Virus record (IMG/VR): IMGVR_UViG_3300028423_000213
Location: 1-28,924 of that record
From: a virus
Reading direction: 5' to 3' (one strand)
DNA length: 28,924 nt
In this document: piece after piece, positions 9,297 to 26,811 of the stretch
How the letters are laid out: the number at the start of each line of letters is the position of its first letter
Numbering within the stretch: the first letter of the stretch is position 1
Translations under genes and position numbers: made by a program
Notes under the pieces: model-generated
The model's database searches: none
Told to the model about the DNA's origin: nothing
The model's input: only the letters and a program-made list of their open reading frames with translations

Positions 9297-10846
9297 TGGA
9301 CCTTCGCAGCGGTATTCTGCAAACGGCTCAATCTGTTGGCGTTGACCCACTCGATCTGGCGACAGTGATCAGCTATGAAACGGCTGGCACGTTTGATCCC
9401 ACTAAGCGCGGCCCAACGACGCAATGGGGCCAGCATCGCGGTCTTATCCAGTTTGGTGAGCCACAAGCGCGGCAATATGGCGTTGATTGGAATGATCCTT
9501 TGGGTTCGCAGTTGGGGCCAGAAGGCGCGGTTGCAAATTACCTCAAAAGCAGTGGCGTAAAGCCTGGAATGGGGCTTTTGGACCTATACAGCACCGTGAA
9601 CGCAGGAGCGCCGGGGTTGTATAACCGCAGCGATGCGAACAATGGCGGAGCGCCGGGAACGGTTCGGGATAAGGTTGAAAACCAAATGGCGGGCCACCGC
9701 GAAAAGGCGGCGGCGCTTTTGGGTGGCGACTACACCCCCAGAAACACAGGTGGGCAGATGGCACAGAACAACGGCCTTTTGGGCAACATGACACTTTCCA
9801 CGCAAGGCACAGCCCCAGAGCCGGAGCAAAAGCCTTGGCTCAAGCGCGACAAAACGCAGGATATGTTTGACCGCCTTGTGATCGGCCTTGAGGGCATGAG
9901 AATGAACCCGAATGAAGCCTTGATGCAGACCGCGCAGGGCCGCATTTCAAACCGCCGGAAAACCAAGGCCAACGCCACGCAACGGAACAAGACCGCAGAC
10001 TGGCTTGAGCAAAACGGCATGGGCCCTTTGGCCGAAGGAGTGCGCAACGGCTCAATCACGGCGCAACAGGCGTTTGCACTGGCGAAAGCGCAGCAGGGTG
10101 GCGGGGGATACCGTACCCTGACCGGCGAAGAAGCCGCGCGCATGGGGCTGGACCCGAACAAGGCCTATAACATGGGGCCGGATGGCAAGATTACTTCCAT
10201 CGGCGGTGGTGGCGTGAATGTGAGTGTCGGGGGGCAGGGGCCACAGGTCGGCACGATTCCGCAGGGCTATCAGATGGTGCAGGATCAAGAAACAGGGGCC
10301 TATCGCATGGAACCCATCCCCGGCGGCCCAGAGGACACAAGCAGCGCAGACGCCAACCGTGCCGAGAACGAGGCGGCAGGAGCCGTCAATGTGCTTGGCG
10401 TTGTGGATAAGCTGAAACAAGATATTGAGGCGAACCCGACGATGACAACGGGGCTAGTTGGCAGCATAGTGCGGTCAATCCCCGGCACGGGCGCTTACAA
10501 CGCAGAGGCAACGGCGCAGACTATTAAGGCCAACCTCGCGTTTGATGCCTTGGCGGCGATGCGCAAGGCCAGTCCAACGGGCGGCGCGCTTGGTGCTGTG
10601 TCAGAGCGGGAATTGGCGCTTTTGGATAGCCAGATTGCAAATCTTGACATGAACCAATCAACAGAACGTGTTCTAGATTCGCTTGAGCGCATTGAACAGC
10701 AATACACCCGCCTTCTGCAAAAAGCCTATGAAACCGGGGACCCCGCCGCGCTGGATGCGGCGCTTGGTGGTCGGCCTGAGTTTATGGGGGGCGCGTCAGG
10801 AACCGATGATGATGCACTGTTTAAAAAGTATGGGGTGCCGAAATAA
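9296..10846 (+). CDS. Virion lytic transglycosylase / ejection protein
   Basis: A 516-residue protein. Residues about 10-110 look like a transglycosylase (SLT/lysozyme-like) domain: VDPLDLATVISYETAGTFDP with likely catalytic Glu28, then a Gly-rich RGLIQFGEPQARQYGVD. The rest is Gln/Gly/Ala-rich with amphipathic helices and a helical region at about residues 370-480. Such proteins are packed in the virion and locally open peptidoglycan as DNA enters. The start is the ATG overlapping the upstream TGA by one base; a TTG one codon earlier is in frame. The final TAATG couples it to the next gene. Confidence 0.8.
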   Translation: MDLRSGILQTAQSVGVDPLDLATVISYETAGTFDPTKRGPTTQWGQHRGLIQFGEPQARQYGVDWNDPLGSQLGPEGAVANYLKSSGVKPGMGLLDLYSTVNAGAPGLYNRSDANNGGAPGTVRDKVENQMAGHREKAAALLGGDYTPRNTGGQMAQNNGLLGNMTLSTQGTAPEPEQKPWLKRDKTQDMFDRLVIGLEGMRMNPNEALMQTAQGRISNRRKTKANATQRNKTADWLEQNGMGPLAEGVRNGSITAQQAFALAKAQQGGGGYRTLTGEEAARMGLDPNKAYNMGPDGKITSIGGGGVNVSVGGQGPQVGTIPQGYQMVQDQETGAYRMEPIPGGPEDTSSADANRAENEAAGAVNVLGVVDKLKQDIEANPTMTTGLVGSIVRSIPGTGAYNAEATAQTIKANLAFDALAAMRKASPTGGALGAVSERELALLDSQIANLDMNQSTERVLDSLERIEQQYTRLLQKAYETGDPAALDAALGGRPEFMGGASGTDDDALFKKYGVPK

Positions 10847-20426: not shown

Positions 20427-20508
20427 CAGCGGCGGCAGGATTCGAACCTGCGGCGCTAGCTAGTGCGTCTTGGCGTCCCTCAACTTTAAGCCTCTCAGTC
20501 ACACCGCT
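20427..20508 (-). tRNA. Class II (Ser-like) tRNA, abnormal anticodon arm
   Basis: On the minus strand, acceptor AGCGGTG pairs with CGCCGCT (one wobble). The D-arm is ACT-GAGAGGCTTAA-AGT, and the T-arm GCAGG-TTCGAAT-CCTGC is perfect. The discriminator is G, as in serine tRNAs, and the spacing leaves a long variable arm (about 82 bases in total). In the anticodon arm I find no five-base stem, only scattered matches, so the anticodon cannot be read safely. CCA is not encoded. It may be a degenerate phage tRNA or a pseudo-tRNA. A promoter-like sequence lies upstream. Confidence 0.65.
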
Positions 20509-23827: not shown

Positions 23828-23916
23828 TGGTGTGGTCCTCCATAAAAAACTAGGTACAGCAAAATGCCGATTATGATTGCGTCTGCTGGCGCGATTACTT
23901 CCTCACCACTTTGCAA
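23824..23916 (-). CDS. Possible 30-residue membrane peptide
   Basis: An open stretch in another frame ends at TGA 23824-23826, overlapping the next ATG as ATGA. It encodes GEEVIAPADAIIIGILLYLV and FYGGPHQ, one clear membrane helix. The only usable start is TTG 23916, with a poor ribosome site, inside the end of the secreted protein gene; it might be made by reinitiation. Evidence is the hydrophobic helix and the coupling. Confidence 0.35.
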   Translation of the reverse strand: MQSGEEVIAPADAIIIGILLYLVFYGGPHQ

Positions 23917-24314
23917 ATGCCGATAGCTACCAGTGTCTTACGCATTGACTTATCACGGCTACACGCATGATGAATCGCTGCTTTCCGAGCATATGACGGG
24001 CGCTGCGTAAGGAGGTCATGCAGGAATCGTGCTTCTTCCCTTGTGTTACATTCGTCGTCAATGCGACCGTTGCCGAAAGCAATGCCAAAGCCGGGGCCGG
24101 AGACAGCACCAGACGCAGATAGAGCGCAGCTTGTTGTATGGCTCATAGAGGGTGCGCCCATACCCGGCACCTGATCTGAGAAATCAGTCGTGCTGCCCTC
24201 GATGTTGACGCCGCTGTAAGACCCGCTTTGGGATTGGCTGTCAGATGTGATAGATTGCGCTGCGGCGGCGCTGGCTGATAAGATAAAAGCGGCTGTGAGT
24301 CGTGCAAGGTTCAT
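23895..24314 (-). CDS. Secreted phage protein with DEEC-type motif
   Basis: A 139-residue protein. A signal peptide (MNLARLTAAFILSASAAAAQ, cleavage near AAA-Q) leads to a Ser/Gly-rich region (SQSGSYSGVNIEGSTTD), then PSMSHTTSCALSASG, GFGIAFGNGRIDDECNTREE and a basic C-terminus with two more Cys. A Cys, a Gly-rich stretch and then DEECNxR recur in secreted phage proteins near structural genes, of unknown role. I use the second ATG, seven bases after AGGAG; the first is too close. It probably acts in the periplasm or on the cell surface. Confidence 0.75.
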   Translation of the reverse strand: MNLARLTAAFILSASAAAAQSITSDSQSQSGSYSGVNIEGSTTDFSDQVPGMGAPSMSHTTSCALSASGAVSGPGFGIAFGNGRIDDECNTREEARFLHDLLTQRPSYARKAAIHHACSRDKSMRKTLVAIGICKVVRK

Positions 24315-24343
24315 AGTCATTCTCCTGTAGCTGGGGGATGTGT

Positions 24344-24367
24344 TGGGGCGGGCGGCAACCCGCCCCA
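24344..24367. other. Strong GC hairpin between the two secreted-protein genes
   Basis: Perfect nine-base-pair stem tggggcggg / cccgcccca with loop cggcaa, starting six bases after the upstream minus-strand stop. No T run follows on either strand, so it could be an mRNA end-stabiliser or a Rho-dependent pause rather than a simple terminator. Confidence 0.6.
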
Positions 24368-24372
24368 GCTGA

Positions 24373-24864
24373 TCAATCGTCGTTTTCGTCGTCCCACTTG
24401 TCAGGATTCCCGGGCGTCCCGTCGTCGAAACCGCCGTGGCCTAGGCCCAAGCCGGGGAAGCCTTCGTCGTCATCGGAATCACCGTTGGCAAAGCCACCAG
24501 CAAAGCCACCTTCGGCTTTGGCAAAGCCAGCACGTGCTGCAAACGATCCGCCGTAGCCACCGCCAGCAATGGTTTCAGAGAAGTCGAACCCGTCTGTGAA
24601 ACTCTCACCTGTGATGCTGGCAGCACCGTCCTCCGCGCTCCACGTCATGCTGGCTCCAGCAAACTCACCGCTGCCGCTTTCGTTGCGGATGCTGGTGTTT
24701 TGGTAGCCACCCAGTGAGCCCGTGGCCGAGACACCACCAGATTTTGCAAAGGTGCTGACGGTGCCACCAAATGCGCCTTGGACGCCGTTGAAGTTGTCAT
24801 CATCGGCATGTGCCATGCCAGTCAAGGCAACGGCTGCGACTGCGGTTGTGATAAAGTGTTTCAA
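24373..24864 (-). CDS. Secreted Gly/Ala/Asp-rich protein
   Basis: A 163-residue protein with signal peptide MKHFITTAVAAVALTGMAHA followed by DDDN. The mature part is Gly/Ser/Ala-rich with beta-like repeats (FGGTVSTFAKSGG, SLGGYQNTSIRN, GGGYGGSFAARAG) and ends in an Asp/Gly-rich tail (DDGTPGNPDKWDDENDD). I start at TTG 24864, seven bases after AGGAG; longer frames lack a ribosome site. The repeats and Asp-rich tail hint at a calcium-binding or surface role, but this is not shown. It lies between a GIY-YIG gene and another secreted protein. Confidence 0.7.
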   Translation of the reverse strand: MKHFITTAVAAVALTGMAHADDDNFNGVQGAFGGTVSTFAKSGGVSATGSLGGYQNTSIRNESGSGEFAGASMTWSAEDGAASITGESFTDGFDFSETIAGGGYGGSFAARAGFAKAEGGFAGGFANGDSDDDEGFPGLGLGHGGFDDGTPGNPDKWDDENDD

Positions 24865-24866
24865 GA

Positions 24867-24986
24867 TCACTCTCCTATGGTTGTTTGGTGCCAATCGCAC
24901 CACGGAAAGGCAGGCGCGCTGCCCCTCGCTGGTATGGTTGGGGTAGGTTGCGCAGGAAACGCTGGCCCGCTTGTGTCATGTGTCAT
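24867..24986 (-). CDS. Possible 39-residue Pro-rich upstream ORF
   Basis: ATG 24986 follows a ggggaaag ribosome site, and the frame ends at a TGA two bases before the TTG start of the secreted protein. The peptide is Pro/Thr/Ala-rich (MTHDTSGPAFPAQPTPTIPA). It could be a translated leader that controls the downstream gene, or chance. The same stretch holds the AGGAG of that gene. A tandem ATGACAC pair begins here. Confidence 0.3.
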   Translation of the reverse strand: MTHDTSGPAFPAQPTPTIPARGSAPAFPWCDWHQTTIGE

Positions 24987-25036: not shown

Positions 25037-25423
25037 TCACCATTCAATGTTGTCCAGTTCACGAGCGGCCCTTTCATCTTCAATGTATTTTCGCGCCATA
25101 CTTTCAATGACATCCCAAGGGATGACTTCCTCGTCACCTTCATCCGCTTGAAGGTCCAAATCTTGGTGGCACGGTCCTGAAATAGACGGACGTTTTAAGT
25201 TGTATTTTGGATGAAGCGAGGCAATCGCCAGCTTTTCAGCGTCCAAAGCTTCGGCTCTAGTTTCAAAGTGCTTTATGGTTATGGTCGAAATTTCCTCAAA
25301 CCAGTGCGAGCTTTTGTGACGAGCCTGCCTGCTTAAAAATGTTGACGACATGCCAACGTAAAGAAGAATGCCGTCTTTATCGTAATGGAAATAAACCTGG
25401 CCTTTTTTCTTCTTGCTACGCAT
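25037..25423 (-). CDS. GIY-YIG nuclease-like protein
   Basis: A 128-residue protein. The N-terminal GIY-YIG core reads VYFHYDKDGILLYVG (residues 10-24), so the two strands are VYF and YVG instead of GIY and YIG. Then come a basic RQARHKSSH helix, the expected glutamate in RAEALDAEKLAI (Glu63), and HPKYN. The C-terminal 45 residues are acidic. Such proteins act as homing or repair-type nucleases. It is divergent from the integrase, and its ATG lies inside a 17-base repeat. Its base composition is more A+T-rich than its neighbours, suggesting separate acquisition. Confidence 0.75.
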   Translation of the reverse strand: MRSKKKKGQVYFHYDKDGILLYVGMSSTFLSRQARHKSSHWFEEISTITIKHFETRAEALDAEKLAIASLHPKYNLKRPSISGPCHQDLDLQADEGDEEVIPWDVIESMARKYIEDERAARELDNIEW

Positions 25424-25433
25424 TTTTTACGCA
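25417..25433. repeat. 17-bp direct repeat, copy 1 (GIY-YIG start)
   Basis: tacgcattttttacgca, identical to 25603-25619. It covers the start codon of the minus-strand GIY-YIG gene. Two TACGCA half-sites are separated by a run of T. Confidence 0.85.
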
Positions 25434-25602
25434 TCCCCCTTCCCAACATTCTGATAAAGCAACGAATGACGCCGCCCACCTTGGGCACCACACTTGCATA
25501 TATTTGCAGTAGATACAAACGCAAAAACCCGCAAAACATAGGTATTTACGCTTTTGCCATTTGCAACGGCTTCTGCGTGATGCGTAAGATTGCGCAACTG
25601 AG

Positions 25603-25619
25603 TACGCATTTTTTACGCA
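25603..25619. repeat. 17-bp direct repeat, copy 2 (integrase leader)
   Basis: Same 17 bases, ending 10 bases before the integrase ATG, next to its aagggg ribosome site. Related half-sites occur between the copies at 25545-25552 (tttacgct) and 25580-25587 (gatgcgta). Probable binding sites for a regulator or for the integrase. Confidence 0.85.
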
Positions 25620-25629
25620 AGGGGCGGGC

Positions 25630-26589
25630 ATGGCTTCGATTCGCAAGGTCGGAAAGCGGTGGCGGGCAGAGATTGCCCGAAAGGGGGTGCGCAAGTCACG
25701 CGTGTTTGCCACCCGGCGCGAGGCGTCGGATTGGGCCGCGCATGAGGAGTTTCTCATAACCGGCGGCGAAAAGGTAGCGGCAACGCTTTCTTTTGGCGAT
25801 GTTTTAAAAAGGTACTCCCGTGAAGTTAGCCCATCGAAGCGCGGCGCGCGGTGGGAAATCATGCGGCTTGAAAAGATGCAGCGTGACCCCATCGCCCGCA
25901 AGCGGCTGTCTGATGTAACGGCGGCTGACTTGGCCCGGTGGCGGGATACTCGGCTTGGCGAAGTGCAGCCCGGAACAGTGCGGCGGGAAATGGGCATTTT
26001 GTCTGGCGTGTTTAGCGTGGCCAAAAAGGAATGGGGGTTGCTGCGCTCGAACCCAATGGAAAACGTCAAAAAGCCACCATCACCACAGGGGCGGGAAAGG
26101 TTGCCGACACCTGCCGAGATTGAACGGCTGCGAGATGCAGCGGGGGATTTATCAACGTACACGGGCCGCGCCTTTCATGCTTTCATGTTTTCCTGTGAGA
26201 CAGCCATGCGGGCCGGTGAGGTCTGCGGGCTGACTTGGGATTGCATTGATCTGGATCGTGGCGTTGCACACCTGCACAAAACCAAAAACGGCAGGCCGCG
26301 CGATGTGCCGTTGTCGAGGGCCGCGCGGGCGATGCTGGTGGAACTTGAATCCTTCCCGCGCGTCTTTTCCATGACGCCCCGGCAGCTTGATGCGAACTGG
26401 CGTAAACTCCGGGCCAAGGCTAAGGTGGATGGGCTGACATTCCACGATAGCAGGCACCATGCCATCACGCAGCTTGCGCAGCGGGTCGAGGTCTTGGATT
26501 TGGCGCGTATCGTGGGGCATACTGATCTCAAGATGTTGATGCGATATTACAATCGGTCGGCGTCTGACATTGCCGACATGCTAGGGTAG
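25630..26589 (+). CDS. int: Tyrosine-recombinase integrase
   Basis: A 319-residue protein. The N-terminal basic part (MASIRKVGKRWRAEIARKG) is an arm-binding domain, residues about 50-145 are the core-binding domain, and residues 155-319 are catalytic. Active-site residues are Arg194 (CETAMRAGEVCGLTW), Lys217, His272-x-x-Arg275 (FHDSRHHAITQL), His297 (GHTDL) and the nucleophile Tyr306 nine residues later. All are present, so it should be active and insert the phage at attB. It overlaps the facing HTH gene by nine bases. Its leader carries repeated TACGCA motifs. Confidence 0.95.
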   Translation: MASIRKVGKRWRAEIARKGVRKSRVFATRREASDWAAHEEFLITGGEKVAATLSFGDVLKRYSREVSPSKRGARWEIMRLEKMQRDPIARKRLSDVTAADLARWRDTRLGEVQPGTVRREMGILSGVFSVAKKEWGLLRSNPMENVKKPPSPQGRERLPTPAEIERLRDAAGDLSTYTGRAFHAFMFSCETAMRAGEVCGLTWDCIDLDRGVAHLHKTKNGRPRDVPLSRAARAMLVELESFPRVFSMTPRQLDANWRKLRAKAKVDGLTFHDSRHHAITQLAQRVEVLDLARIVGHTDLKMLMRYYNRSASDIADMLG

Positions 26590-26811
26590 GTACACTTCGC
26601 GCAACCGGCCCGAGCCGCGCGCTTTCAATTCACCGGCATCAATGCGGCGTCGGATCGTGTCAGGGTGGCACCCCTTGCGCTCCGCTGCCTCGCGAATGCT
26701 GACCCATTCAGGGGCCGGTGTGATCGTTGCGCCTTTCACGGCTTCGCGCAGTTGGCGCACCTCATTTTCAAGGCGCTCAAAATCCTCGCGGGTTGGCAGT
26801 TCAATAGCCAT
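26581..26811 (-). CDS. Excisionase-like HTH protein
   Basis: A 76-residue protein. A coiled-coil start (MAIELPTREDFERLENEVRQ) leads to a MerR/excisionase-type winged HTH: WVSIREAAERKGCHPDTIRR, then RIDAGELKARGSG and LREVYLP. Small HTH proteins of this class direct excision or regulate early genes. It faces the integrase and their 3' ends overlap by nine bases, an arrangement that fits a directionality factor. A ggag site precedes the ATG. A different DNA-binding role is possible; the family is recognised only by pattern. Confidence 0.7.
   Translation of the reverse strand: MAIELPTREDFERLENEVRQLREAVKGATITPAPEWVSIREAAERKGCHPDTIRRRIDAGELKARGSGRLREVYLP

Follow-up and report, generated by a model that had tools for sequence, protein, structure and literature searches.

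Paired repeats flanking a tRNA-Leu(CAA) end in an uncultivated phage are predicted arm-type integrase sites whose bases covary with integrase N-terminal residues

Two perfect 17-bp repeats in the DNA of an uncultivated phage are, by our comparative sequence analysis, best explained as the arm-type sites to which the tyrosine integrase (Int) encoded by this phage would bind within its attachment site, attP, a reading to which we give a probability of about 0.94. We favor it because the sites are paired, the core between them derives from a tRNA gene, the geometry is conserved, the pairs are split between prophage ends in a relative, and the bases of the sites covary with residues of Int. The window analyzed here is the entire 28,924-base virus record IMGVR_UViG_3300028423_000213, in which the attP region and its neighbors comprise the following features.

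25037 to 25423, minus strand: small GIY-YIG nuclease-like protein of 128 aa, its start codon inside the P-arm pair (Pfam GIY-YIG, 8.2e-6; PHROG endonuclease)
25416 to 25422 (CTACGCA) and 25427 to 25433 (TTACGCA), plus strand: predicted P-arm pair of integrase arm-type sites, holding the repeat copy at 25417 to 25433; matching left pairs occur in 17 other viral contigs and at the attR of the G263 prophage
25475 to 25490, plus strand: attP core CCCACCTTGGGCACCA, matching a tRNA-Leu(CAA) 3' end in all 16 nt
25546 to 25552, plus strand: single arm-like half-site TTACGCT between the core and the P' pair, putative function
25581 to 25597, minus strand: inverted arm-like half-sites TGCGTAA (25581 to 25587) and TGCGCAA (25591 to 25597), putative function
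25602 to 25608 (GTACGCA) and 25613 to 25619 (TTACGCA), plus strand: predicted P'-arm pair of integrase arm-type sites over the int leader, holding the repeat copy at 25603 to 25619; an equivalent pair precedes int in relatives
25630 to 26589, plus strand: tyrosine integrase of 319 aa (Pfam Phage_integrase, 1.2e-22; PHROG integrase, 1.2e-62; fold search)
25630 to 25785, plus strand: predicted arm-binding domain of Int, residues 1 to 52, three beta strands and a helix (AlphaFold model, covariation)
26581 to 26811, minus strand: excisionase-like helix-turn-helix (HTH) protein, candidate recombination directionality factor (RDF), convergent with int (PHROG excisionase, 1.1e-5; TIGR01764 excise, 1.2e-5, just below its cut-off)

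The 17-mer TACGCATTTTTTACGCA is present exactly twice on the plus strand, the copies lying 186 bp apart, and no further copy exists elsewhere in the window with up to 3 mismatches allowed (0.12 expected per window). The GIY-YIG start codon (25421 to 25423, minus strand) falls inside the left copy, and the right copy ends 10 bp short of the int ATG at 25630. These placements, together with the extra half-sites between the repeats, bear out what the preliminary description had reported from the letters alone; what it had missed was that either copy consists of two TTACGCA-like sites in direct orientation at 11-bp spacing and that the copies enclose a tRNA 3' end. The spacer within the pairs is a run of T, so that one could see here a low-complexity or chance repeat of two TACGCA words joined by T runs; however, the longest exact repeat measured 17 against a maximum of 14 in 1,000 dinucleotide shuffles of 25300 to 25700, and the pairs are kept family-wide in relatives. 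We therefore rejected this explanation, to which we attach a negligible probability.

The core CCCACCTTGGGCACCA, 16 nt long and situated between the two repeats, is identical to the sequence with which tRNA-Leu genes of several Rhodobacterales genomes end (anticodon CAA, ARAGORN), the presumed attB; an identical core is carried by viral contig L084. A generous bound on the chance that the stretch between the repeats would match any tRNA 3' end is 0.0004. The order in the window is P pair, core, P' pair and int, with 41 bp from the P pair to the core and 112 bp from the core to the P' pair. We found no lysogen of this particular phage; its host and attB are those suggested by family-level matches. 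Further, the IHF consensus WATCAANNNNTTR, which may differ in the host, had no exact match in 25401 to 25640, and a sigma-70 promoter scan returned nothing convincing over the repeats. In a separate observation, a pattern made of the core and its downstream sequence matched a truncated tRNA-Leu(CAA) 3' end in L025 at 1490 to 1517 (genome G047), where no full tRNA was called, possibly an attachment-site scar; a match of the same pattern in L026 was rejected as a chance coding match.

Adjacent to the attP of the window is an integrase of the expected architecture, as indicated by its Pfam and PHROG matches, its structural model and a fold search in which the whole Int model matched Tn1549 Int and full-length lambda Int. 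In the AlphaFold model (mean pLDDT, 91.5), strands at residues 2 to 7, 10 to 17 and 20 to 26 are followed by a helix at 29 to 52, and such a modeled three-stranded sheet followed by a helix is the fold expected of an arm-binding domain. Lambda Int is itself heterobivalent: its N-terminal domain binds arm sites, which lie on the P and P' arms (PMC4880445; PDB 1z1b, 5j0n). The system described here would resemble it in these respects, as it does in the alignment of the window Int model to full-length lambda Int. It differs from lambda in the lack of an exact IHF consensus match in the window, in its symmetric two-plus-two pairs, and in the position of attP 5' of int; the two integrases are 16% identical.

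Conservation in relatives, which the preliminary description had suggested as a check, was found both in viral contigs with an unintegrated attP and in relatives at large. An automated search recovered a two-sided pair that none of 60 shuffles equaled both in the window and in a further 17 viral contigs, in all of which arm-type repeats flank the core; these contigs are not all independent, since L110 and L113 share one attP sequence. The contigs differ in motif, yet within each of them the left and right pairs share one, examples being GACGTCA (L003), CACGCA (L073), TTACGGA (L091), ATCACAC (L093), TTACGCC (L100, L109 and L110) and TTCCGTCA (L106). Spacing is conserved as well, with 34 to 43 bp from left pair to core, 100 to 137 bp from core to right pair, and 0 to 25 bp from right pair to the int start. 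Among relatives without an intact tRNA, no clear left pair was seen in L061, L083, L117, L120, L142 and L143. None of the 16 loci with an ARAGORN-called intact tRNA just upstream passed this search; at such loci the left pair would be expected at the far prophage end. A further locus, L133, which has a complete tRNA gene just upstream, did pass, with a weak two-sided pair (32/42, against shuffles reaching 31) that was treated as chance. More broadly, a pair with 10- to 12-bp spacing (at least 6 of 8 bases identical, at most 70 bp from the int start) precedes int in 141 of the 146 unique relatives with enough upstream sequence.

Integrated relatives show where such pairs go upon integration. 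Integrases 50 to 60% identical to that of the window were found in Rhodobacterales genomes, and almost all of their genes start 100 to 150 bp beyond the point where a tRNA gene ends; this is mostly a tRNA-Leu gene, with several anticodons represented, and sometimes a tRNA-Thr gene. Many of these relatives carry TTACGCA-type pairs with 11-bp spacing just before int, and wherever the far prophage end was readable, the tRNA 3' end was repeated there. Specifically, attR of G263 has TTACGCATTATTTACGCA at a distance of 37 bp upstream of the tRNA end, of which 20 nt are repeated (41 in the window), while attL of the same prophage has, on the int side, TTACGCACAAATTACGCA 110 bp after the core (112 in the window). 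G016 has a layout like that of G263, at 41 and 110 bp, with TTACGA/TACGAA-type sites on both sides. In G253 and G221 the tRNA end is repeated too, and the left pairs are not clear. The prophage ends of G263 and G016 therefore indicate that, on integration, one pair goes to attL and the other to attR, as is required of P and P' arm sites. Separately, in L004 (Roseobacter cerasinus, approximately 9521 to 9848), the tRNA-Leu gene used as attB appears to be interrupted by an intron-like insertion of about 200 nt; this tRNA was missed by ARAGORN, and all Rfam families stayed below their gathering scores there.

Which protein reads the pairs can be approached through covariation, for which we used 107 non-redundant representatives (catalytic-domain identity below 80%), with the motif register set without protein sequences, starting from TTACGCA; the input consisted of computationally called pairs, some of them miscalled (for example, L017, L072 and L142). 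Out of 318 Int positions, residue 12 best explained base 6 (z 22), residues 5 and 14 best explained base 5 (z 16 each), and residue 7 best explained base 7 (z 11; n=107 throughout). In the window Int, the residues covarying with arm-site bases 5, 7, 6 and 5 are R5, V7, R12 and E14, respectively. At residue 12, R goes with C at base 6 in 74/78 cases, Q with A in 11/15, E with G in 2/3, and F/Y with T in 3/3. Base 5 is G in 51/51 cases with E14 and in 56/57 with R5, and base 7 is C in 34/38 with R7. In disjoint pairs of nearest relatives, changes at residue 12 and base 6 coincide (8/9 vs 1/38, p 2.5e-7), as do those at residue 14 and base 5 (10/13 vs 2/30, p 8e-6). There are exceptions: L188 has TTACGAC sites upstream of int together with a WRAE N terminus, and Q14 tolerates G, C or A.

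These patterns bear on a rival in which the pairs are sites not of Int but of the Xis-like HTH protein, acting as an RDF. Its gene adjoins int, and the 11-bp direct-repeat spacing fits an RDF, as the sites of phage 186 Apl show that RDF sites can be direct repeats one helical turn apart (PMC7498355). However, bases 5 to 7 track Int N-terminal residues above any other Int residues, nearest relatives included, and we regard RDF binding as a very unlikely account of the pairs. That the integrase reads the repeats is instead suggested by the agreement of four lines of evidence, namely, the tRNA-side relatives, the split of the pairs in a related lysogen, the change of motif on both sides of the core, and the covariation, this last being the evidence that points to the Int N terminus as the reader. 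Residues 5, 7, 12 and 14 occupy alternating positions of strands 2 to 7 and 10 to 17 in the AlphaFold model, and their side chains would face the DNA. It seems fairly probable, if well short of certain, that a simple, transferable residue-to-base rule operates on one face of the beta sheet, in which base 5 depends on residues 5 and 14, base 7 on residue 7, and base 6 on residue 12 (C for R, A for Q, G for E, T for F/Y). Under such a rule, arm specificity would be predictable from the integrase sequence. A family-wide arm-recognition rule was not found in the papers searched, whose coverage of the literature is partial, and its novelty is unproven.

The preliminary description had offered two readings of the repeats. 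Our analysis strongly supports one of them, arm sites of the integrase close to attP, with the tRNA core now placed between the pairs. It does not support the other, joint control of the GIY-YIG gene and int, proposed as a new lysogeny switch. The latter would make the pairs operators of a single regulator, the HTH protein or Int, and has some appeal: the GIY-YIG gene starts within the left pair, the int leader overlaps the right one, divergent GIY-YIG-like genes also occur near the left pair in L072 and L073, and Int autoregulation is documented for an int-tRNA orientation of this kind (PMC2951348). Against it, the GIY-YIG gene is rare, exceeding the cut-off in 2 of 50 related viral records and adjoining attP in 2, and the pairs occur no less where endolysin/Rz, acylase, Dcm methylase or other genes take its place (names from ORF translations); hence, the pairs do not exist for the GIY-YIG gene. 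Further, the distance between the pairs and the tRNA core is fixed, and integration takes the two pairs to opposite ends of the prophage. In a lysogen, the GIY-YIG gene and int would be separated in the same way. We consider joint control improbable; int promoters overlapping the attachment region are already known, common and autoregulated (KplE1 intS, PMC2951348).

The GIY-YIG gene is probably cargo beside attP that happens to start at the P arm. A gene of this kind adjoins attP only in the window, L072 and L073; in the latter two (approximately 1174 to 1653 and 2323 to 2778, respectively, both minus strand), divergent GIY-YIG-like genes, 22 to 27% identical, start about 12 to 20 nt from the left pair, the L073 gene falling below the Pfam cut-off. 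Their window-like position suggests recurrent capture of GIY-YIG-like genes beside attP. A viral-contig scan with the GIY-YIG protein alone returned no relative, and one with three GIY-YIG proteins returned nine, none near a related integrase; a search of a phage collection returned mostly free-standing endonucleases of actinophages. It is possible that Int bound at the P arm on the phage circle could still repress the putative GIY-YIG gene.

Among characterized systems, the attP of mycobacteriophages is similar. In Cluster K (CrimD/Pixie), L5 and Giles, arm-site pairs of about 11 bp flank a tRNA or tmRNA core next to int, and in close relatives the arm motifs differ along with Int substitutions at positions 17 and 19 (PMC3203893). 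The likeness lies in the pairs that flank the core, in the location of this array 5' of the tyrosine integrase gene, and in arm motifs that change with the Int N terminus at positions that are there two residues apart; the differences are another integrase branch and host, the use here of tRNA-Leu(CAA) and a TTACGCA motif, and a far larger comparison. The KplE1/HK620 intS module (PMC2951348) is alike in the direction of int, which points away from the tRNA, and in an int leader that runs over the recombination site, and both the window and the integrated relatives have int downstream of the tRNA end on the same strand with its leader over arm sites; the RDF overlap lies outside this likeness. 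Negative autoregulation was demonstrated with KplE1 intS, and most tRNA-associated integrases of such an orientation have been proposed to share it (PMC2951348). By analogy, because the P' pair lies over the int leader, 10 bp before the ATG, we predict that Int probably represses its own gene here, whereas for KplE1 this has been demonstrated. Given these precedents, the attP layout is of a kind already known, and the interesting part is the residue-base rule.

Integration of this phage may then proceed as follows. The N-terminal beta-sheet domain of Int would bind both TTACGCA-like sites of each pair while its catalytic part would act on the core, and arm-bound and core-bound Int would together build an intasome, with putative participation of IHF and Xis. 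The phage would enter a host tRNA-Leu(CAA) gene at its 3' end, at presumed strand-exchange points, and recombination would restore the tRNA 3' end and leave the tRNA intact. An integration site, tRNA-Leu(CAA), and a likely host group, the Rhodobacterales, can thus be proposed for an uncultivated phage. Beyond this phage, arm motifs change jointly with N-terminal residues of Int in over 100 integrases. This opens the specificity of arm recognition to direct tests, and the comparison allows attP to be located automatically in phages from metagenomes.

Elsewhere in the window, positions 20427 to 20508 (minus strand) scored 34.1 bits with the Rfam tRNA model (gathering score, 29) and were missed by ARAGORN; this is a degenerate or unusual phage tRNA-like gene. 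Finally, between the late region and the GIY-YIG gene, two small ORFs of 141 and 176 aa (23895 to 24903, minus strand), for which no clear family match was found, have signal-peptide-like starts and are possible lysogenic cargo.
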